The translations under genes and the position numbers were made by a program. DNA of 64,000 nucleotides from contig QHSP01000021.1 of assembly GCA_003220495.1 (NCBI GenBank), positions 62,001 through 126,000 on the forward strand. Reading direction: 5' to 3'. Below the pieces are notes generated by a model. That model did no database searches. It saw only the letters and a list, made by a program, of their open reading frames with translations, and was not told the DNA's origin. Of this stretch, positions 7,672 to 17,890 are shown piece by piece; position 1 is the stretch's first letter, and every line of letters starts with the position of its first letter. Origin of the DNA: Candidatus Rokuibacteriota bacterium (lineage in GTDB: Bacteria; Methylomirabilota; Methylomirabilia; Rokubacteriales; CSP1-6).

Positions 7672-8883
7672 TCATAGCGGAATCTCGTTGATCGAAAAGA
7701 TAGCGAGCATCATAGCGACGACGATGAACGCCACGAGTACCCCCATGCCGAAGATGATCACGGGCTCCAGCAGCCGCAGCACGCGCTTGAGATCGGTCCC
7801 GACGTCGGTCTCGAACGTCTCGGCGACCTTGAGCAGCATGTCCTCGAGCCGGCCCGTCTCTTCGCCGACCCGCACCATGTGGATCGCCAGCGCCGGAAAC
7901 GGCGCCTGCGCCTGCATCCCGGCCGCGATGGTCCCGCCGCGCTTCACGCCGTCGCCGAGCCGCTCCACGGCTTGCCCGATCGCCTGGTTGGTCATCGTGT
8001 CGCCGACGACCCCGAGCGCGCTCATGACCGGCACGCCGCTCTTGAGCATGGTCCCCAGCGTGCGCGCGAAGCGCGCGGTCTCGATCTTCATGATGAGCGG
8101 TCCGATCAGTGGCGCGCCGAGAATCGTCTGATCACACTGCAGCCGCCCGTGCGGGCTGGCGGTCCACATGCGCCAGGCGAGCACGCCGCCGAGGGCGAGC
8201 AGGACGCCGACCCACCAGTACGACGAGAAGATCGCGCTCACCGTCAACAATATCTGGGTCGGCAAGGGGACGGTCTGGCCGAGGTCGGCGAAGATCGTCG
8301 CGAACCGCGGGATGACGAACGTCATGAGGAAGATGATGGCGCCGATGCCGAACGTGAAGACGACCGCCGGGTAGGCGACCGCCGTGAGGACGGCGTCGGC
8401 GAACTGGGCGCGCGCCTCGAGGAACTCGGCGAGCCGGCGCAGCGTGATCTCGAGCACGCCGCCCCGCTCGCCGGCCCGGATCATGTTGATGTAGAGCCGC
8501 GAGAACGGACGCGGATGGTGCTTGGTGAGCGCCTCGCTCAGCGAGGAGCCGCCCCGGACGCTCACCAGCAGGTCGGCGACGATCGCCTTGACGCGGGCGT
8601 TCGGCGCCAGCTCCTCGAGGATCGCGAGCGAGCGGTCGAGCGGCAAGGTGGCCTCGAAGAGCGTGGCCAGCTGCTGCGTGAACATCAAGACGTCGCGCTG
8701 GCCGATGCGCCCGGAGCCGCCGAGGGAGAACCAGCTCTGGCGGTCGGCGTGGGGCGAGACGCGGATCGGGAAGTAGGAGTCGCGCTGTAGCCGCTCGACG
8801 ACGGAGCGGGCGTCGGGCGCTTCCATCACGCCATCGATCGTCTGGCCGCGCCGGTCGGCCGCCCGATAGACAAAAACGGGCAT
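7672..8883 (-). CDS. gspF: Type II secretion platform membrane protein GspF
   Basis: 403-aa polytopic inner-membrane protein of the GspF/PilC family. It has two repeated cytoplasmic T2SF domains (about residues 65-190 and 270-390) and three membrane segments (about 160-190, 207-240, 374-398; e.g. VIIFGMGVLVAFIVVAMMLA). Conserved motifs include FTQQLATLFEATLPLDRSL and FARTLGTMLKSGVPVMSAL. It links the ATPase GspE to pseudopilus assembly. The start at 8883 is 6 bp from the gspE stop. Confidence 0.95.
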   Translation of the reverse strand: MPVFVYRAADRRGQTIDGVMEAPDARSVVERLQRDSYFPIRVSPHADRQSWFSLGGSGRIGQRDVLMFTQQLATLFEATLPLDRSLAILEELAPNARVKAIVADLLVSVRGGSSLSEALTKHHPRPFSRLYINMIRAGERGGVLEITLRRLAEFLEARAQFADAVLTAVAYPAVVFTFGIGAIIFLMTFVIPRFATIFADLGQTVPLPTQILLTVSAIFSSYWWVGVLLALGGVLAWRMWTASPHGRLQCDQTILGAPLIGPLIMKIETARFARTLGTMLKSGVPVMSALGVVGDTMTNQAIGQAVERLGDGVKRGGTIAAGMQAQAPFPALAIHMVRVGEETGRLEDMLLKVAETFETDVGTDLKRVLRLLEPVIIFGMGVLVAFIVVAMMLAIFSINEIPL

Positions 8884-8889
8884 GGCGGA

Positions 8890-10584
8890 CTAGGCGTCTT
8901 CCTGCGTGACTCGGAGCACTTCCTCGACGGTGGTGACGCCCGCGCACGCCTTGGCCCAGCCATCGAGCCGCAGCGTGACCATGCCCGCCTCCATCGCCAC
9001 GCGACGGATGTCGCGGGTCGGGGCGCGTCGCAGGATGAGGCTGCGCGCGTCCTCGGTGATCGGGAACAGCTCGTAGATGCCGGTCCGGCTCCGGTAGCCG
9101 GTGCCGCGACACTCGTCGCAGCCGCGGCCGCGGTAGAGGCGCGTTCCGTCGGCGCCGGCGATCCCGAGGGCGCTCAGATCGGCCGACGACGGCGTGTCGG
9201 AGACGCGGCACGTCGCGCAGATCCGCCGGACGAGGCGCTGCGCGAGCACGCCCTCGAGCACGGACGCGACGAGGTAGGGCTCGACGCCCATGTCTTGCAG
9301 TCGCGTGATCGCGCCCGGCGCGTCGTTGGTGTGGAGCGTCGAGAAGACGAGGTGGCCGGTGAGCGAGGCCTGGATCGCGATCTCCGCCGTCTCGAGGTCG
9401 CGGATCTCGCCGATCAGGATCACGTCGGGGTCCTGGCGGACGATGTGCCGGAGCCCGGTGGCGAAGGTCAGGCCGATCTTGGGCTTGACGGCGATCTGGT
9501 TGACGCCCTTCAGCTGGTACTCGACGGGATCCTCGACGGTGATGATCTTGCGGTCCGGCGAGTTGATCTTGTCGAGCGCGCCGTAGAGCGTCGTGGTCTT
9601 GCCCGATCCGGTCGGTCCGGTGACGAGGAGGATGCCGTGGGGACGCTTGATCAGCGCCTCGAAGCGCGGGAGCATCGCCGGCGAGAAGCCGAGCTTCTCG
9701 AGCTCCAGGAAGACGCTCTGGCGGTCGAGCAACCGCATGACGATCGACTCGCCGTGCACCGTGGGAATCGTGGAGGTGCGGATATCCACGCGGCGGTTGT
9801 GGAGCGTGACGCGGATGCGGCCGTCCTGGGGTAGCCGGCGCTCCGCGATGTTCATCTCCGCCATCAGCTTCACGCGCGAGGTCACCGCGGCCTGTAGCCG
9901 CCGCGGCGGCGCCTCCTGGTCGAAGAGTATGCCGTCGATGCGATAGCGGATCCGGAGCGTGTCCTCGAAGGGCTCGATGTGGATGTCGGAAGCCTCGGAC
10001 GTGATGGCGTTCTCGATGAGCAGATTCACGAGCCGGACCACCGGCGCCTCGAACGCCATGTCGCGCAGCTGGTTGACGTCCTCGTCGCCCTCGCCGCCGC
10101 GATCGTCCTCCATGCCCTCGACGATGCGCTGCAGGGGCGTCGCCACGCCGTCGTACGTCCGGTCGATCGCCTCGATGATCGCGTCGGCCGAGGACACGAC
10201 CACCTTCACGGTGAGGCCGGTCGACTGCGCCAGGTCGTCGACGATGATCGGATTCAGCGGATCCGCCGTCGCGATGGTCAACACGTTGCCCTCGACGCTC
10301 ACGGGGCACACCGCGTACTGGCGCAGGTACTTCGGCGAGAGATTTTTGACGATCGGCAGGGGCGCCGGCAGCTCGTCGCGGTTGAGATAGGCGAGGTTCT
10401 GCTGCTGCGCGAGCGCCCGGAGCACGTCGTCGTCCTTCACGGCGCCGAGCGACACGAGCGCCTCGCCGACTCGCTCGCCCGTCGCGCGGGCGCGTGCGAG
10501 CGCCTGCTCCACGACGTCGGGGGTGGTCAGCCGTTCACGAACCAGGATCTCACCGAGCCGGCGGAAAAGCCCCGTGATGCCCAT
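8890..10584 (-). CDS. gspE: Type II secretion assembly ATPase GspE
   Basis: 564-aa hexameric cytoplasmic ATPase that powers pseudopilus assembly. An N-terminal T2SSE_N domain (residues about 10-140) is followed by the core ATPase: Walker A GPTGSGKTT at about 323-331, Asp box IITVEDPVEYQL, Walker B VILIGEIRD at about 388-396 and His box TLHTNDA. A zinc tetracysteine motif (C456, C459, C489, C492) is complete. The ATG at 10584 gives MGITGLFRRLGEILV; the frame is open further upstream but overlaps the divergent transporter gene. It is the first gene of the secretion operon. Confidence 0.95.
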   Translation of the reverse strand: MGITGLFRRLGEILVRERLTTPDVVEQALARARATGERVGEALVSLGAVKDDDVLRALAQQQNLAYLNRDELPAPLPIVKNLSPKYLRQYAVCPVSVEGNVLTIATADPLNPIIVDDLAQSTGLTVKVVVSSADAIIEAIDRTYDGVATPLQRIVEGMEDDRGGEGDEDVNQLRDMAFEAPVVRLVNLLIENAITSEASDIHIEPFEDTLRIRYRIDGILFDQEAPPRRLQAAVTSRVKLMAEMNIAERRLPQDGRIRVTLHNRRVDIRTSTIPTVHGESIVMRLLDRQSVFLELEKLGFSPAMLPRFEALIKRPHGILLVTGPTGSGKTTTLYGALDKINSPDRKIITVEDPVEYQLKGVNQIAVKPKIGLTFATGLRHIVRQDPDVILIGEIRDLETAEIAIQASLTGHLVFSTLHTNDAPGAITRLQDMGVEPYLVASVLEGVLAQRLVRRICATCRVSDTPSSADLSALGIAGADGTRLYRGRGCDECRGTGYRSRTGIYELFPITEDARSLILRRAPTRDIRRVAMEAGMVTLRLDGWAKACAGVTTVEEVLRVTQEDA

Positions 10585-10599
10585 GCTATGCTCCCGAGC

Positions 10600-11331
10600 A
10601 TGGTAGCATACCTGGTGTTCGTGGCTGCCGCGGCGGCCGCCGATCTCGCCGGGGCCTTGCTCGTGACCACCGTGCACCAGAAGGGGCTGGCGCCGCTGCG
10701 ATATTTCGTCGCCGGCGGCGCGGGCTTCATGCTCGCGGCCGCGTTCGTGCGGATGCTCCCCGAGAGCGCGCAGGTGCCCCACGCGTTCCTCTTCGTCCTC
10801 GTCGGCTACTTCGGCGTGCACCTCTTCGAGCACACGGTGGCCCCGCACTTCCACTTCGGCGAGGAGGTCCATCCGGAGGCGCTGTTGCGCCCGTCGGCCG
10901 GGTACCTCGCGCTCCTCGGTCTCGGCGTTCACACGCTCTTCGACGGTGTCGCGATCGCGGCCGGGTTCATGATCGAGCCCGCGCTCGGCGTGCTGCTCTC
11001 CATCGCGGTGTGCCTGCACAAGGTGCCAGAGGGCTTCACGATCGCGTCGATCATGCTCGCCGGCGGCCAGTCACGGGCCGCCGCGATCAGCGCCGGCGCG
11101 CTCCTGGGCGCCTTGACCATCGCGGGCGCGGTGGCCACGCGCTTCGTGGCCGAGCACCACGTCGGCTACGCGCTCGCCCTCTCCGCGGGCGTCACCATCT
11201 ACGTGGCCGCGTCGGATCTCATCCCCGAGGTGAACCGCGAGGGCGGGCCCGCGCTCGGCTGGACGGTGTTCGGCGGGCTCGTGCTGTTCGCGGTCGCGGA
11301 CTGGCTCGTCTCGCCGCTCGGCGATCGCTGA
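10600..11331 (+). CDS. ZIP family divalent metal transporter
   Basis: 243-aa integral membrane protein with about eight hydrophobic segments. ZIP signatures are present: HTLFDGVAIAAGF in the middle and HKVPEGFTIASI further on, where the His, Asp/Asn and Glu residues line the metal site. A histidine-rich loop (HTVAPHFHFGEEVH) lies between TM3 and TM4, as usual for ZIPs. It is transcribed divergently from gspE with only about 15 bp between starts. An ATG at 10588 is an alternative start. The substrate (zinc, iron or other) cannot be told from sequence. Confidence 0.88.
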   Translation: MVAYLVFVAAAAAADLAGALLVTTVHQKGLAPLRYFVAGGAGFMLAAAFVRMLPESAQVPHAFLFVLVGYFGVHLFEHTVAPHFHFGEEVHPEALLRPSAGYLALLGLGVHTLFDGVAIAAGFMIEPALGVLLSIAVCLHKVPEGFTIASIMLAGGQSRAAAISAGALLGALTIAGAVATRFVAEHHVGYALALSAGVTIYVAASDLIPEVNREGGPALGWTVFGGLVLFAVADWLVSPLGDR

Positions 11332-11425: not shown

Positions 11426-11878
11426 GTGAAAATCTTGATCTTGCACGGCCCGAACCTGAATCTCCTGGGCACCCGCGAGCCCGGCGTGTACGGCCGCGTC
11501 ACCCTGGCCGAGATCGACCGCATGCTGCGCGACCACGCCCGTCGCGGCGGCCACTCCGTCGAGTGCCGGCAGTCGAATCACGAGGGCCAGCTCGTCGACT
11601 GGCTCCAGGCCGCTCAGCGCGAAGGCTTCGGCGGCATCGTCTTCAACCCAGGAGCGTTCACGCACTACTCGATCGCCCTGCGCGATGCGGTGGCCGCGAT
11701 CACGGTGCCGGTCGTGGAGGTCCACCTGTCGAACGTGCACGGGCGCGAGGAGTTTCGGCGCCACTCGGTGATCGCGGCGGTCGCACGCGGGCAGATCGCT
11801 GGGTTCGGCCCGCAGAGCTATCTCCTGGGTCTCGACGCCCTCACGGCGAATCCCCGCCGGCCGACTCGACGACGGTGA
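11426..11878 (+). CDS. aroQ: 3-dehydroquinate dehydratase, type II
   Basis: Cytoplasmic shikimate-pathway enzyme converting 3-dehydroquinate to 3-dehydroshikimate; 150 aa, the normal length for the dodecameric type II family. Key motifs are HGPNLNLLGTREP, the active loop with Arg17 and Tyr22, SNHEGQLVDWL, FNPGAFTHYSIALRDA and EVHLSNVHGREEFR (catalytic His). The GTG at 11426 fits the conserved start. It stands alone between the transporter and the sigma factor gene. Confidence 0.95.
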   Translation: MKILILHGPNLNLLGTREPGVYGRVTLAEIDRMLRDHARRGGHSVECRQSNHEGQLVDWLQAAQREGFGGIVFNPGAFTHYSIALRDAVAAITVPVVEVHLSNVHGREEFRRHSVIAAVARGQIAGFGPQSYLLGLDALTANPRRPTRRR

Positions 11879-11935
11879 ATCGCGACCGCCACCCCGGCGT
11901 CTAACGCCGACGGGAGGGCGAGCGAGTGGATCGCG

Positions 11936-12820
11936 GTGGACACGGACGAAGCGGCCCTCATCGAGCGGTGCCGTGCCGGTGACCTCGCGGCATTCGAGCC
12001 GCTGGTCGAAAAGTATCGTCAGCGCGTCTACCGACTCGCCTACAACGTCCTGCGCGACCCCGAAGAGGCCTGGGACGTCGCCCAGGACGCCTTCATCCGC
12101 GCCTTCCAGGCCCTGCCGTCGTTCCGGGGCGACTCCGCGTTCTACACCTGGCTCTTTCGGATCGTGATGAACGTCGCGCGGGACCGCGCCCGCCAGCACG
12201 CAGCGCGCGGCCGCGCGTTCGGCACCGAGCGCGTCGACGAAAAGGATTGGGACCGGATCCTCGTCGACCAGGGGACCGCGCCCGACGCCAGGGCGACCCA
12301 GGTCGAGGAGCGCGCGCGGATCGGCCGCGCGCTCGCCTCTTTGTCTGAGCCGCACCGGGCCATTATCATGTTGAGTGATCTCGAGGGACTTTCGTATCGT
12401 GAGATCGCGGAGGTCTTGAACATACCGATGGGGACCGTGATGTCGCGGCTGCACAACGCGCGCCGGCGTCTCCGGGACGCCCTCGGGCCGCTCCTGGTTT
12501 TGATCCTGGCCCTGCTGCTGACGCTCGCGCTGGAGGCGGTCGCTCACGCGCAGACGATCGTCAGGTTCGGCACGCGGATCGTCCTCGCCAGCGACAGCCC
12601 CCCGAGCGACGCGCCGAGCAAGGCGCCCGAGCCGCCCGACGAGCGGCTCGAGGCCTTCCTGCCGAAGCTTCGCCAGCTCTTCCGCTACAACAGCTACACC
12701 TCGCTCGAGCGCTACCGCGCCGAGGTGCCGGTGGGGACGACCCAGCGCTGGCCGGTGCCGGGCGACCGGCGGCTCGAGGTCACGCCCCAGAGCGTGAAGA
12801 GCGGCGCGGTGAGCTTTTGA
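11936..12820 (+). CDS. ECF sigma factor fused to a membrane segment and an interrupted extracytoplasmic domain
   Basis: Residues 8-85 are a sigma-70 region 2 (YRLAYNVLRDPEEAWDVAQD and YTWLFRIVMNVARDRAR). Residues about 125-182 are region 4 (ALASLSEPHRAIIMLSDLEG, then SYREIAEVLNIPMGTVMSRL). Instead of ending there, the frame continues into a hydrophobic segment (LLVLILALLLTLALEAVAHA, about 186-205) and about 90 more residues (LEAFLPKLRQLFRYNSYTSL). It stops at GAVSF, where the sequence appears frameshifted (see 12821-12948). The hydrophobic piece looks like a signal peptide or anchor with AHA-Q as a possible cut site, so this may be a tethered sigma factor or two genes fused. No anti-sigma gene is adjacent. 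The start is GTG at 11936. Confidence 0.85.
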   Translation: MDTDEAALIERCRAGDLAAFEPLVEKYRQRVYRLAYNVLRDPEEAWDVAQDAFIRAFQALPSFRGDSAFYTWLFRIVMNVARDRARQHAARGRAFGTERVDEKDWDRILVDQGTAPDARATQVEERARIGRALASLSEPHRAIIMLSDLEGLSYREIAEVLNIPMGTVMSRLHNARRRLRDALGPLLVLILALLLTLALEAVAHAQTIVRFGTRIVLASDSPPSDAPSKAPEPPDERLEAFLPKLRQLFRYNSYTSLERYRAEVPVGTTQRWPVPGDRRLEVTPQSVKSGAVSF

Positions 12821-12948
12821 CCCGTGGCAATGTGACCGAGGTGTCGACGAACATCCAGGCGCAGTCGGGCAACCCGGCGGTGATCGGGGGTCCCAAGCAG
12901 GGCTCGGGCACCCTCATCATCATCCTCTGGACCAACCCCAATCCGTGA
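12821..12948 (+). other. Out-of-frame C-terminal continuation of the sigma-factor fusion
   Basis: After the TGA at 12818-12820, the -1 frame continues with a sensible protein tail (TRGNVTEVSTNIQAQSGN, then VIGGPKQGSGTLIIILW) to a TGA at 12946-12948. Joining it needs one extra T in, or a -1 slip on, the TTTT run at about 12815-12818 (AGC TTT TGA). Codon use and the beta-strand pattern match the preceding domain, so this is most likely the true C-terminus. I cannot distinguish a sequencing indel, a real mutation or programmed slippage. Confidence 0.65.
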
Positions 12949-12961
12949 TCGGCGGGCCATC

Positions 12962-14491
12962 GTGAGCTCGGGCGAGGACCGCTACTTCCGCGAACGCGCG
13001 CGGATCGAACAGGGCCACACGAAGTATCGCGACAAGCTCCGCGAGGAAGGCAAGCTCTTCGTCCGCGACCGGCTCAAGCTGCTCCTCGATCCGGGCTCCG
13101 AGTTCCAGGAGGACTGGCTCTTCGCGCGCTCGAACGAGGCCGACACGCCGGCCGACGGCGTGGTCACCGGGGTCGGCAAGGTCGGAGGCCGGCCGGTGTG
13201 CGTGATGGCGAACGACTACACGGTCAAGGCGGGCTCCTGGGGCGAGAAGACCGTCCAGAAGATCGTGCGCATCCAGGAGAAGGCCGCGCGGCTGCGCGTG
13301 CCCCTCCTCTATATGGTGGACGCCGCCGGCGGGCGCATCTCCGAGCAGATCAAGATCTTCCCGGGACGGTTTCACGCCGGACGCATCTTCTACAACGAGG
13401 TCCAGCTCTCGGGGGTGGTCCCCCAGATCTGCGCCCTGTTCGGGCCGTCGCCGGCCGGCTCCGCGTATCTGCCCGCGCTGACCGACGTCGTGATCATGGT
13501 GGACGGCAAGGCGTCCCTCTACGTCGGCAGTCCGCGCATGGTCGAGATGGCCATCGGGGAGAAGACGACCCTCGAGGAGCTGGGCGGCGCGCTCATGCAC
13601 TGCAAGGTCTCGGGCTGCGGCGACATCCTCGCCGCCTCCGACGAGGACGCCATCGCCCTGGCGCGCCGGTATCTGACCTACATGCCACAGTCGTATCGCG
13701 ACCTGCCGGCGGTGTCCGCCGCGGCCGAGCCGAAGCCGGGCCGGTCCATCGACGAGATCGTGCCGTACGATCAGCGGAAGTACTTCGACATGTACGAGGT
13801 CATCGACCGCCTGATCGACGCCGACTCCTGGTTCGAGATCAAGCGGCTGTTCGCGCAAGAGATCATCGTCGGCTTCGCGCGCCTCGGCGGACGCCCGGTC
13901 GGTATCGTGGCCAACCAGCCGAAGGTCAAGGGCGGCGTGCTGATGGTCGACTCGTCCGACAAGGCGGCGCGCTTCATCTGGCTCTGCAATGCGTTCAACA
14001 TTCCGTTGATCTATCTGGCCGACATCGCGGGCTTCATGGTCGGCACGAAGGTCGAGCAGCAGGGGATCATCCGCCACGGCGCCAAGATGGTCTTCGCGAC
14101 CGCGCAGGCGACCGTGCCGAAGATCTCGGTGATCGTGCGCAAGTGCTACGGCGCCGGGCTCTATGCGATGTGCGGCCCGGCCTTCGAGCCCGACGCCGCG
14201 ATTGCGCTGCCCCAGGGACAGATCGCGATCATGGGCCCGGAGCCGGCGGTGAACGCCGTCTACTACAACAAGATCATGGAGCTGCCCGAGAGCGAGCGCG
14301 CGGCGTGGGTCAGGCAGAAGCGCGACGAGTACGCGCAGGACGTCGACACCTACAAGCTCGCTTCCGAGATGCTGATCGACGATATCGTGCCGGGCGGCGC
14401 CCTTCGCGACGAGCTGATCAAGCGCCTGGCGTACGCGCAGACCAAGGCTCACGAGTTCCCGGCCCGCCGGAACGGCGTCTACCCGGTCTGA
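12962..14491 (+). CDS. Acyl-CoA carboxylase carboxyltransferase (beta) subunit
   Basis: 509-aa biotin-dependent carboxyltransferase of the PccB/MccB/AccD5 family, which moves the carboxyl group from biotin to an acyl-CoA. It has the two crotonase-fold halves with oxyanion segments (YMVDAAGGRISEQIKIFPG in the first half, IIRHGAKMVFATAQATVPK in the second) and the C-terminal IDDIVPGGALRDELIKRL. The acyl substrate (propionyl, methylcrotonyl or other) cannot be assigned with confidence. No biotin carboxylase or BCCP gene is nearby, so its partner is encoded elsewhere. The GTG start at 12962 gives MSSGEDRYFRERARIE. Confidence 0.9.
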   Translation: MSSGEDRYFRERARIEQGHTKYRDKLREEGKLFVRDRLKLLLDPGSEFQEDWLFARSNEADTPADGVVTGVGKVGGRPVCVMANDYTVKAGSWGEKTVQKIVRIQEKAARLRVPLLYMVDAAGGRISEQIKIFPGRFHAGRIFYNEVQLSGVVPQICALFGPSPAGSAYLPALTDVVIMVDGKASLYVGSPRMVEMAIGEKTTLEELGGALMHCKVSGCGDILAASDEDAIALARRYLTYMPQSYRDLPAVSAAAEPKPGRSIDEIVPYDQRKYFDMYEVIDRLIDADSWFEIKRLFAQEIIVGFARLGGRPVGIVANQPKVKGGVLMVDSSDKAARFIWLCNAFNIPLIYLADIAGFMVGTKVEQQGIIRHGAKMVFATAQATVPKISVIVRKCYGAGLYAMCGPAFEPDAAIALPQGQIAIMGPEPAVNAVYYNKIMELPESERAAWVRQKRDEYAQDVDTYKLASEMLIDDIVPGGALRDELIKRLAYAQTKAHEFPARRNGVYPV

Positions 14492-15106: not shown

Positions 15107-17890
15107 ATGGACTCCATCCGCGTGCTCTACGTCGAGGGTGATCCCGCCGATCAAGAGGCGACCCACCGTCACCTCGTGCGTCACGCGCCTCACATCAAGC
15201 TCACGGTCGTGGGCACCGTGGCCGAGGCGGTCGAGCGCGTCACGATCGGCGACATGGACGTCATGCTCGCGGACTATCGCCTCCCCGACGGCACGGGCCT
15301 CGATCTGCTCGACACGGTGAAGTCCCGGGGCCTGGAAGTGCCGGTGGTGCTCGTGACCGGCTCGGGGGACGCCGATATCACCGTGCGTCTCCTCAAGGCC
15401 GGCGCCACCGACTATCTGGTGAAGCGCCCGGGGTATCTGGCCACCCTGCCGGTGGTGCTCGAGAGCGCGCTCCGCTGGTTCTGCACCGCGAGCGAGCGGC
15501 GGCGCGCGCCGATCCGCGTCCTCTATGCCGAGCACCATCCGGAGGACATGGCGCTCACCCTGCGCGCCTTCGAGGACCACGACCGTCGCGCGCGTGTCGA
15601 GACGGTCGCCCTCGCGCGGGAGGCGCTCGCCAAGCTGAAGACCGTCCACTACGACGTGCTGCTGCTCGACAACCGGATGCCCGATCTCTCGGGGATCGAG
15701 GTGCTCAAGGAGCTGCAGGCCGACGGCATCCGTATTCCCGTCGTGATGGTCGCCGGCGAGAGCGACGAGGACTCGGCCGTTCAGGCGTTCAAGCTCGGCG
15801 TCGCGGACTACCTCATCAAGCGCGAGGGCTATCTCGCCAAGCTGCCGTCGACGATCGAAAACGTCCTGGCGCAGCGCCGTCTGGCCGACGAGAAGGACGG
15901 TCTCGCGGTCCTCAACGATCTGGCGAAGTCGCTCATCACCACGAAGGATCTCGACGAGGTACTGCGGCGGGTCGTGAACGCGGCCCGCGAGCTCATCAAG
16001 GCCGAAGCGAGCGTGCTGTGGCTGTTCGAAGCCGGCGTGCTCTGGCCGGTCGCCTGGGAGGGCATCGAGGATCGCGCAGCCGAGCCGCTCAGGTTCCAGG
16101 TGACGCCGAACCTCGCCGAGCGGCTCGCGCTCGAGCGCAAGATCTCGCTGCGGCGCCTCCTCGCGCAGACCGGTGGACCCGACCCGACGGCGGTCTTCGG
16201 AACCGCGGGACAGCCCCTGTCCGTGTCGTTCGTCGGCCCCGAAGGCCTGGTGGCCGTGCTGGCGGTGGGCAGCCCGCGCCCACGCGAGTTCACCGCCATC
16301 GAGGAGCGCCTGCTACTCGCGCTGGCCGACCACGCCGCGGTCGCCGTCGAGAACGCGCGCCTCTACCGTCGCCTGCGGCTCGAGCTCGAGGCGCGCGAGC
16401 GGCTGACCGCGATCCTGGAAGCGACGACCGATCTGGTCGCGATCGCCGACCTGTCCGGGCGCCTGCAGTACCTCAATGCCGCGGGCCAGGCGCTGCTCGG
16501 GCTCGCCGCCGACGATGCGCTCGGCCATCCGATCGCCGGCCTCGCGCCGGAGCGGCTGCGGCCGGTCGTCCACGACGAGATCTGGCCGACCTTGATCCGC
16601 GACGGGCTCTGGACGGGGGAGGCGGTGCTCCTCGCGCGCGACGGCCGCGAGGTGCCGGTGTCGGTGGTCGCCGTCGCGCATCGCGGCGCCGACGGAGCCA
16701 TCGAGTTCCTCTCGGCGATCGTGCGCGACATGACCGAGCGCAAGCGCATCGATGCCGAGCTCCGGCGTCAGCGCGAGGCGCTGTACCAGACGGAGAAGCT
16801 CGCGACGATGGGCACGGTGCTCGCCGGTGTCGCGCACGAGCTGAACAATCCGCTGACCGCTGTGACGGGCTACGCGAACTTGCTCCGGCAGGAGCTGGCG
16901 GGCACGCCCTCGGCGACGCGCGCCGAGGCCATTGCGCACGCCGCCGATCGCTGCGCATCGATCGTCCGCAACTTCCTGGCGCTCGCGCGAAAGCACCCGC
17001 CCGAGCGTCAGCTCGTGAGGTTGAACGACATCGCGCGCGACGCGGCCGAGCTTCTCGCGTATCACCTCCGCGTCGACCGCATCGAGGTGGCGCTGGACCT
17101 GACGGAAGGTCTTCCGGTGCTGTGGGCGGACCCGCATCAGCTCCACCAGGTCGTGGTCAATCTGGTGACCAACGCCCGGGACGAGTTGCGCAAGGCGCCG
17201 GAGCCGCGCCTGCTCACCTTGCGCACGCGGGCGGACGCCGTGCGGGGTCGCGTCTCGCTCGACGTCGAGGACACCGGTCCGGGTATCTCGGCCGAGATCC
17301 GCGACCGGATCTTCGAGCCGTTCTTCACGACGAAGCCGGTCGGGCAGGGGACGGGGCTCGGCCTCTCGCTCTGCCACGGGATCGTCGAAGGGCACGGCGG
17401 TACGCTCTGCCTCGTGAGCGAGCCGGGCCACGGCGCGATCTTCCGGGTGGAGCTCCCGGTCGTGGCGCCGCCGACTACATCCGGCAAGCGCGCCCCGGGC
17501 GCGCCGCCGGTTGTCAAGGGCATGCGCATCCTCGTCGTCGACGACGAGCGGCTCGTGCTCCAGTTGCTCGGCGAGATGCTCGGCGCCGATCATCACACGG
17601 TGGACACGGTCGCCGACGGGACGCAGGCGCTCGAGCAGCTGCGCCGCTCGTCCTACGACCTCATCCTGAGCGACGTGCGCATGCCGTACCTCGACGGTCC
17701 GGGCCTCTATCGCGCGCTGGAGCGCCGGCTACCCGACCTCTGCCGGCGCTTCGTGCTCATGACCGGAGACGTGCTGAGCGCGGAGATCCAAACGTTCCTC
17801 GAGCAGACCGGCGTGCCGGGGTTGAGCAAGCCCTTCGATCGCGGCGAGGTCCGGCGGGTGATCCAGCTCGTCGCCAGCGGCGGCCGGTAG
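15107..17890 (+). CDS. Hybrid sensor histidine kinase: REC-REC-GAF-PAS-HisKA-HATPase-REC
   Basis: 927 aa, no membrane segment, so cytoplasmic. Domains in order: receiver 1 (4-125, Asp56 in MLADYRLPDG), receiver 2 (136-250, Asp188 in LLLDNRMPDL), GAF (about 265-420), PAS (about 430-545), HisKA with phospho-His577 (VAHELNNPL), HATPase_c (N-box near 685-690, G-boxes DTGPGIS and GQGTGLGLSL) and receiver 3 (807-925, Asp856 in ILSDVRMPYLDG). Three receivers with one kinase suggest a phosphorelay hub that takes input from other kinases at its N-terminus. It starts 7 bp after the stand-alone receiver gene. Confidence 0.93.
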   Translation: MDSIRVLYVEGDPADQEATHRHLVRHAPHIKLTVVGTVAEAVERVTIGDMDVMLADYRLPDGTGLDLLDTVKSRGLEVPVVLVTGSGDADITVRLLKAGATDYLVKRPGYLATLPVVLESALRWFCTASERRRAPIRVLYAEHHPEDMALTLRAFEDHDRRARVETVALAREALAKLKTVHYDVLLLDNRMPDLSGIEVLKELQADGIRIPVVMVAGESDEDSAVQAFKLGVADYLIKREGYLAKLPSTIENVLAQRRLADEKDGLAVLNDLAKSLITTKDLDEVLRRVVNAARELIKAEASVLWLFEAGVLWPVAWEGIEDRAAEPLRFQVTPNLAERLALERKISLRRLLAQTGGPDPTAVFGTAGQPLSVSFVGPEGLVAVLAVGSPRPREFTAIEERLLLALADHAAVAVENARLYRRLRLELEARERLTAILEATTDLVAIADLSGRLQYLNAAGQALLGLAADDALGHPIAGLAPERLRPVVHDEIWPTLIRDGLWTGEAVLLARDGREVPVSVVAVAHRGADGAIEFLSAIVRDMTERKRIDAELRRQREALYQTEKLATMGTVLAGVAHELNNPLTAVTGYANLLRQELAGTPSATRAEAIAHAADRCASIVRNFLALARKHPPERQLVRLNDIARDAAELLAYHLRVDRIEVALDLTEGLPVLWADPHQLHQVVVNLVTNARDELRKAPEPRLLTLRTRADAVRGRVSLDVEDTGPGISAEIRDRIFEPFFTTKPVGQGTGLGLSLCHGIVEGHGGTLCLVSEPGHGAIFRVELPVVAPPTTSGKRAPGAPPVVKGMRILVVDDERLVLQLLGEMLGADHHTVDTVADGTQALEQLRRSSYDLILSDVRMPYLDGPGLYRALERRLPDLCRRFVLMTGDVLSAEIQTFLEQTGVPGLSKPFDRGEVRRVIQLVASGGR

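Follow-up and report, generated by a model that had tools for sequence, protein, structure and literature searches.

ECF sigma factors that carry a membrane segment within their own chain are known from a few bacteria. IutY of P. putida (ECF243; PMC8999054) combines an ECF sigma factor with a C-terminal membrane segment and a periplasmic part; it is released by Prc and RseP, and proteolytic release is likely its activation step. ECF52 (SCO4117), ECF48 and ECF53 of Actinobacteria (PMC8999054, PMC5826349) also unite sigma, a membrane helix and an extracytoplasmic domain in one chain; their anti-sigma domain is a zinc finger, and their extensions reach ~400 residues. In B. thuringiensis, signal peptidase is the site-1 protease for the anti-sigma RsiP of sigmaP (PMC8844934). 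The review PMC8999054, which was the basis of our comparison rather than the numbered ECF classification, states no group in which a sigma is fused to an exported partner via a signal peptide with the anti-sigma located elsewhere.

The gene described here has this last arrangement. What extends the sigma is a formerly exported protein together with its signal peptide, and another locus encodes an anti-sigma homologue, whereas the extension of IutY is the membrane anti-sigma itself. No zinc-finger domain like that of ECF48, ECF52 and ECF53 was detected in the fused protein. Compared with canonical ECF/zf-HC2 operons, the sigma has been fused to a third gene and the anti-sigma homologue is unlinked.

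The fused gene and its relatives

The gene lies in a window of 64,000 nucleotides, the whole stretch of DNA that was analysed, from a draft genome of Candidatus Rokuibacteriota. Candidatus Rokubacteria are a lineage of soil and groundwater. One reading frame from the GTG at 11936 to 12820 on the plus strand encodes ECF region 2, region 4, a hydrophobic segment and a beta-rich C-terminal domain (CTD), confirming the continuous frame that a first-pass annotation of this DNA had described. The gene, its parts and its neighbours are as follows.

11429–11878, plus strand: aroQ (type II dehydroquinase), conserved upstream neighbour (Pfam E 6e-59; synteny)
11936–12820, plus strand: fused gene in this genome, ECF sigma, signal-peptide/TM segment and truncated CTD; 294 aa, stop TGA at 12818–12820
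12002–12202, plus strand: sigma-70 region 2, residues 23–89 (Pfam PF04542, E 1.4e-18)
12314–12472, plus strand: sigma-70 region 4, residues 127–179 (Pfam PF08281, E 5.7e-17)
12485–12553, plus strand: predicted signal-peptide/membrane segment, LGPLLVLILALLLTLALEAVAHA followed by Q (homology to the signal peptide of a separate third gene; A-x-A-like site)
12557–12817, plus strand: in-frame part of the CTD, beta-rich, predicted extracytoplasmic (alignments A1/A5; AF2 of an intact relative)
12817–12948, plus strand: out-of-frame remainder of the CTD (LTRGNVTEVS...IIILWTNPNP), cut off by a 10-bp deletion
12962–14491, plus strand: acyl-CoA carboxylase carboxyltransferase subunit, usual downstream neighbour (Pfam E 7e-154; synteny)

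By domain content the fused protein is an ECF sigma factor: regions 2 and 4, which define the ECF (group 4) sigma-70 type, are both present with Pfam scores well above cut-off, and TIGR02937 (NCBIfam) gives 120 bits against a cut-off of 42.9. Zinc-finger, SnoaL and FecR-like domains have no Pfam match in the window protein, and the SnoaL-like C-terminal domain of the ECF41/ECF56 type has none in this protein or in 29 CTDs. Because neither a zinc-finger nor a FecR-like Pfam domain, the mark of the sigma–anti-sigma fusions IutY/ECF243 and ECF48/52/53, lies between region 4 and the membrane segment, the gene is, by this comparison, not a sigma–anti-sigma fusion of the IutY/ECF52 kind; by analogy it may work alike through proteolysis. 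No anti-sigma gene adjoins it in the window either, as had been noticed from the sequence, the neighbours being aroQ and the carboxylase subunit. Elsewhere in the window we noted a ZIP-family metal transporter (10414–11331, plus strand; Pfam), type IV pilus/type II secretion-like genes including PilC/GspF-like and GspE/PilB-like ones (7672–11019, minus strand; judged by eye), and a 927-aa protein that combines a histidine kinase with several receiver-like domains and GAF/PAS-like parts (15107–17890; from sequence only).

The fusion is widespread among relatives. All 8 same-genus genomes encode an uninterrupted fusion of ~340 aa, and a single open frame of ~330–380 aa with the same domain order, which the first-pass annotation had proposed to look for, is found across the family and again in two more families of its order. 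The CTD frame can likewise be traced back into a sigma domain in nearly all of 31 named Candidatus Rokubacteria (Rokuibacteriota)/Methylomirabilota records, which are draft MAGs like the other genomes compared. The fusion of sigma and exported protein is genuine and beyond chance or error, because all the same-genus genomes carry it uninterrupted and it is found again and again across the family. Close relatives are thus fused, and separate genes occur only in distant families. The earlier suggestion of two genes joined by loss of a stop holds as evolutionary history, but a recent loss of the stop is not supported, and neither is a start of the second gene at the TTG at 12500, which is not conserved among relatives.

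The fused sigmas form one monophyletic clade in a maximum-likelihood sigma tree (support 98/99). Substitutions fall mostly at third codon positions in the sigma and CTD parts alike; over the 134 codons of the CTD, 36 first, 19 second and 82 third positions vary, a pattern of purifying selection. The junction has no linker, the hydrophobic segment beginning ~5 residues after ARRRL at the end of region 4.2, and it nearly always retains LG[PR] and an A-x-A-like site. These sequences point to a fusion that happened once, long ago.

The window copy departs from its relatives in the CTD. Position 12948, first taken as the end of the gene, belongs to another frame (12817–12948) of 43 residues that holds the rest of the CTD, LTRGNVTEVSTNIQAQSGNPAVIGGPKQGSGTLIIILWTNPNP; the true stop is the TGA at 12818–12820. 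At the deletion site (12814–12820) the window is 10 bp shorter than the same-genus genomes (AGCTTTTGACCC vs AGCTTCAACCTGCGGCTCACG), all of which read through without a stop, so that the frame is shifted relative to every genus relative and the CTD is truncated in this MAG. A profile search splits the window CTD into two matches (1–88 and 91–133), and the in-frame product lacks about one third of the domain. The deletion is either real or an assembly error; if it is real, an intact CTD may not be needed in every member. A programmed −1 frameshift at 12817 was considered and dropped, as the relatives stay in frame and their sequence there differs.

The ancestral operon, the unlinked anti-sigma gene and a common promoter

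Profile searches with the CTD in the sister families f7–f9 of the class retrieve it as a separate gene in the order ECF sigma, one-TM zf-HC2 anti-sigma and signal-peptide protein, i.e., a canonical ECF/zf-HC2 operon with an exported third gene. The separate homologue is ~140–155 aa long and has a canonical signal peptide; a CTD standing alone with a signal peptide, which the earlier reading had proposed to seek next to an ECF gene, thus does occur in an ECF operon. Two genomes within the family (L080 and L081) also keep a paralogous unfused operon of sigma, anti-sigma and exported protein. Most of the operon anti-sigmas scanned match zf-HC2 in Pfam (best E 3e-11); the exceptions are that of L081, which has no zf-HC2 match, and that of L074, which falls just under the cut-off.

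When the two are aligned, the mature separate protein (YAQTVPLEVWVIGASREP) and the mature fused CTD (HAQTIVRFGTRIVLASDSPP) begin at the same place. An A-x-A-like site ends the segment in 30/30 fused proteins when a loose pattern is used, and the window segment ends in AHA before Q. Because the three genes are separate in the sister families and the mature starts align, sequence homology identifies the "membrane segment" of the fused gene as the signal peptide of the third operon protein. The same operon anatomy indicates that the fused gene is an ancient collapse of the sigma/zf-HC2/exported-protein operon in which the sigma merged with the third protein. Measured against the three-gene operon, the fused genomes still contain homologues of the sigma, the anti-sigma and the exported protein, but in the studied family the adjacency of separate genes is absent, sigma and CTD are fused, and the anti-sigma homologue is dispersed. 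The adjacent anti-sigma is gone from the fused loci of the order.

Structure predictions describe the parts unevenly. AF2 models the CTD of an intact relative as one helix and eight strands (pLDDT 87). In the full-length protein region 4.2 and the membrane segment form one helix at 165–201, in a model that is weak overall (pLDDT 75, pTM 0.39). Searched against PDB folds, the CTD has no match below E 1e-3; the best natural match is XcpQ (E 7e-3, TM 0.32), and one weak viral match was also returned. The Secretin family PF00263 reaches E 0.013 at best in 11/29 members, below cut-off, with the first member at 12.5 vs 27.5 bits. We rejected assignment of the CTD to a known fold, the secretin included, as the structure matches are unconvincing and the PF00263 score is under the cut-off.

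The ancestral anti-sigma was probably not lost and is now unlinked. When the fused genomes were searched with A6, a 175-position profile built from the operon anti-sigmas, most of them proved to contain one unlinked gene that matches from ~7 to 170 of the 175 positions, including the periplasmic C-terminal IIWV tail, whereas their other zf-HC2 proteins mostly match only the first 90–140 positions. The unlinked homologue is an ordinary zf-HC2 protein, passing the cut-off in 5/5 examples scanned. tol-pal genes adjoin it in 17 of 20 loci, the remaining three being short fragments; the 3–11 kb examined at each locus contain no ECF gene. In the window genome it is found at L142 4999–5505 (G000:C100:192498-193004; match at 192513), convergent with the tol-pal cluster.

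A predicted ECF-type promoter precedes the fused gene.

11877–11904, plus strand: GAAT-N17-CGTCTAA, with the −35-like GAAT at 11877–11880 and the −10-like CGTCTAA at 11898–11904, 31 nt before the start codon

GAAT-N18-GTCYAA stands 5' of the fused gene with identical spacing in 27/30 genomes, and GAAT-N17..19-GTCYAA precedes the gene in 16 of the 20 unlinked anti-sigma loci; for two of the four without it, the sequence read does not reach the true 5' end of the gene. A hand count puts the number of genomes with the element at both loci at 21 or more. In the window's own 6 Mb genome a relaxed pattern has 6 matches, the fused gene and the unlinked anti-sigma among them, and the reversed pattern used as a control mostly has 0–1 match per genome. 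The −10 part resembles the RpoE-type TCTRA. A promoter type common to the fused gene and the unlinked anti-sigma points to one regulon for the two. Autoregulation of the fused gene through this predicted promoter would best explain the arrangement, and we lean towards it; some factor other than the fused sigma may also read the GAAT/GTCYAA promoters. From homology, phyletic pattern and the common promoter type, we infer that the fused sigma pairs with the unlinked anti-sigma.

GAAT-N17/18-CGTCYAA was also seen 5' of genes for DUF6600, RND-like, MacA-like and DksA-like proteins, thioredoxin reductase and small exported proteins in various genomes (L197–L212). These further matches were hand-picked as promoter-like, their identities except DUF6600 were judged by eye, and they serve as leads only; as such they hint at an envelope-stress regulon.

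A predicted mechanism and competing readings

We consider it fairly probable that the locus encodes an autoregulated ECF sigma tethered by a signal peptide, which signal peptidase and a site-2 protease would free and the unlinked anti-sigma would restrain. The full-length product would be made from the autoregulated ECF-type promoter, and the old signal peptide would hold it at the inner membrane, the sigma domain facing the cytoplasm and the CTD lying in the periplasm. The DNA-binding region 4.2 would then sit a few residues from the bilayer, where promoter binding would be hindered. Signal peptidase would cut between A-x-A and Q and free the CTD; the sigma would still be held by the remnant signal peptide until an RseP-like site-2 protease released it. 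The unlinked anti-sigma beside tol-pal, predicted to be co-regulated, would restrain the fused sigma or set its threshold, and the sigma would likely serve an envelope-stress-type regulon.

The genome encodes signal peptidase I and M50 site-2 proteases, and RseP is known to clear signal peptides (PMC8144685). By analogy, release of the fused sigma by proteolysis, as the first-pass annotation had supposed, is plausible. The proposed first cut by signal peptidase resembles that of sigmaP/RsiP, but the anti-sigma is cut there (PMC8844934), whereas here the sigma's own tether would be cut. A more specific form of the tether is a tentative possibility: release of the sigma might hinge on export of the CTD and on signal-peptidase/site-2 processing, so that the cleavable signal peptide would report the state of the export machinery, with the anti-sigma acting in trans from tol-pal.

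The strongest competitor of the tethered sigma is a pair of in-frame nested genes, which we judge unlikely. A secreted CTD would be translated from an internal ATG, with the tail of region 4.2 as its signal peptide, and the full-length fusion would be an unavoidable by-product of coinciding frames. Two features within the sigma coding sequence bear on this reading.

12341–12369, plus strand: sigma70-like promoter TTGTCT-N17-TATCAT (synonymous-codon scan)
12440–12442, plus strand: conserved internal ATG, codon 169 (MSRLHNAR...), possible second start for signal peptide and CTD

ATG169 is invariant (30/30), and the peptide that follows, MSRLHNARRRLR with a hydrophobic core and AxA before Q, looks like a canonical signal peptide; the motif GTVMSR is, however, ordinary in ECF factors, so the codon is constrained in any case. 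Ahead of it, the codon of Gly166 is GGG or GGA in 24/30 fused genes vs 2/24 control ECFs (Fisher p 9e-8, with sequences counted as independent despite their relatedness), yet 5/10 operon sigmas, which need no internal start, already have the same codons. The bias is suggestive of a second start, with imperfect control. The synonymous-codon scan showed rare codons maintained at L136 (TTG) and I143 (ATT) that spell the intragenic promoter, and an independent scan of 1.6 kb returned TTGTCT-N17-TATCAT as the only sigma70-like site (shuffles 0.0 ± 0.2). Of 40 distinct fused genes, 33 have it, so that it is preserved across the order; its end is always 70 nt 5' of the internal ATG, and in six of the other seven genes both hexamers are missing. 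The site comes and goes with the acyl-CoA carboxylase gene that adjoins on the downstream side (31 genes with both, 5 with neither, 4 mixed), and because of this match the site most likely gives the carboxylase constitutive expression, which would explain it without the CTD. We have given up the promoter as proof of a nested CTD gene on that ground. A transcript starting there would still carry the CTD frame, and a nested product may be made.

It is improbable that the sigma does without an anti-sigma, being held constitutively in the membrane and using its own CTD as sensor, with a signal at the CTD leading to site-1 cleavage and then to site-2 release. The fused gene has no adjoining anti-sigma, its junction is conserved and free of a linker, and the CTD is under purifying selection, all of which would suit a sensor; but most fused genomes encode an unlinked, full-length anti-sigma homologue whose promoter is of the type seen at the fused gene, the CTD ancestor, a separate protein, is predicted to be soluble and exported and not a membrane sensor, and the window copy lacks that third of its CTD. 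The idea of a self-contained membrane sensor, raised from the sequence at first, thus keeps its point about the missing neighbour and is weakened by the unlinked homologue and its promoter. An artefact, in which a sequencing or assembly error erased the stop between two genes, is already refuted for the junction: the window does carry a frame-changing deletion in its CTD, but the fusion was read in each of dozens of independently assembled genomes, and no indel changes the frame at the junction.

What the fusion means

Fused ECF factors in the review PMC8999054 have mostly absorbed an anti-sigma or a sensor domain; here the sigma has absorbed an exported partner via its signal peptide. Living relatives keep both states, the three-gene operon and the fused gene with an unlinked anti-sigma, and therefore the route of the rearrangement can be read directly. 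The locus also calls for caution in annotation: an "orphan" ECF factor, with no anti-sigma gene next to it, may have its anti-sigma encoded elsewhere in the genome, where a common promoter can reveal it. If it is true that release of the sigma depends on export of the CTD, the fusion would be a new way of coupling secretion to transcription.
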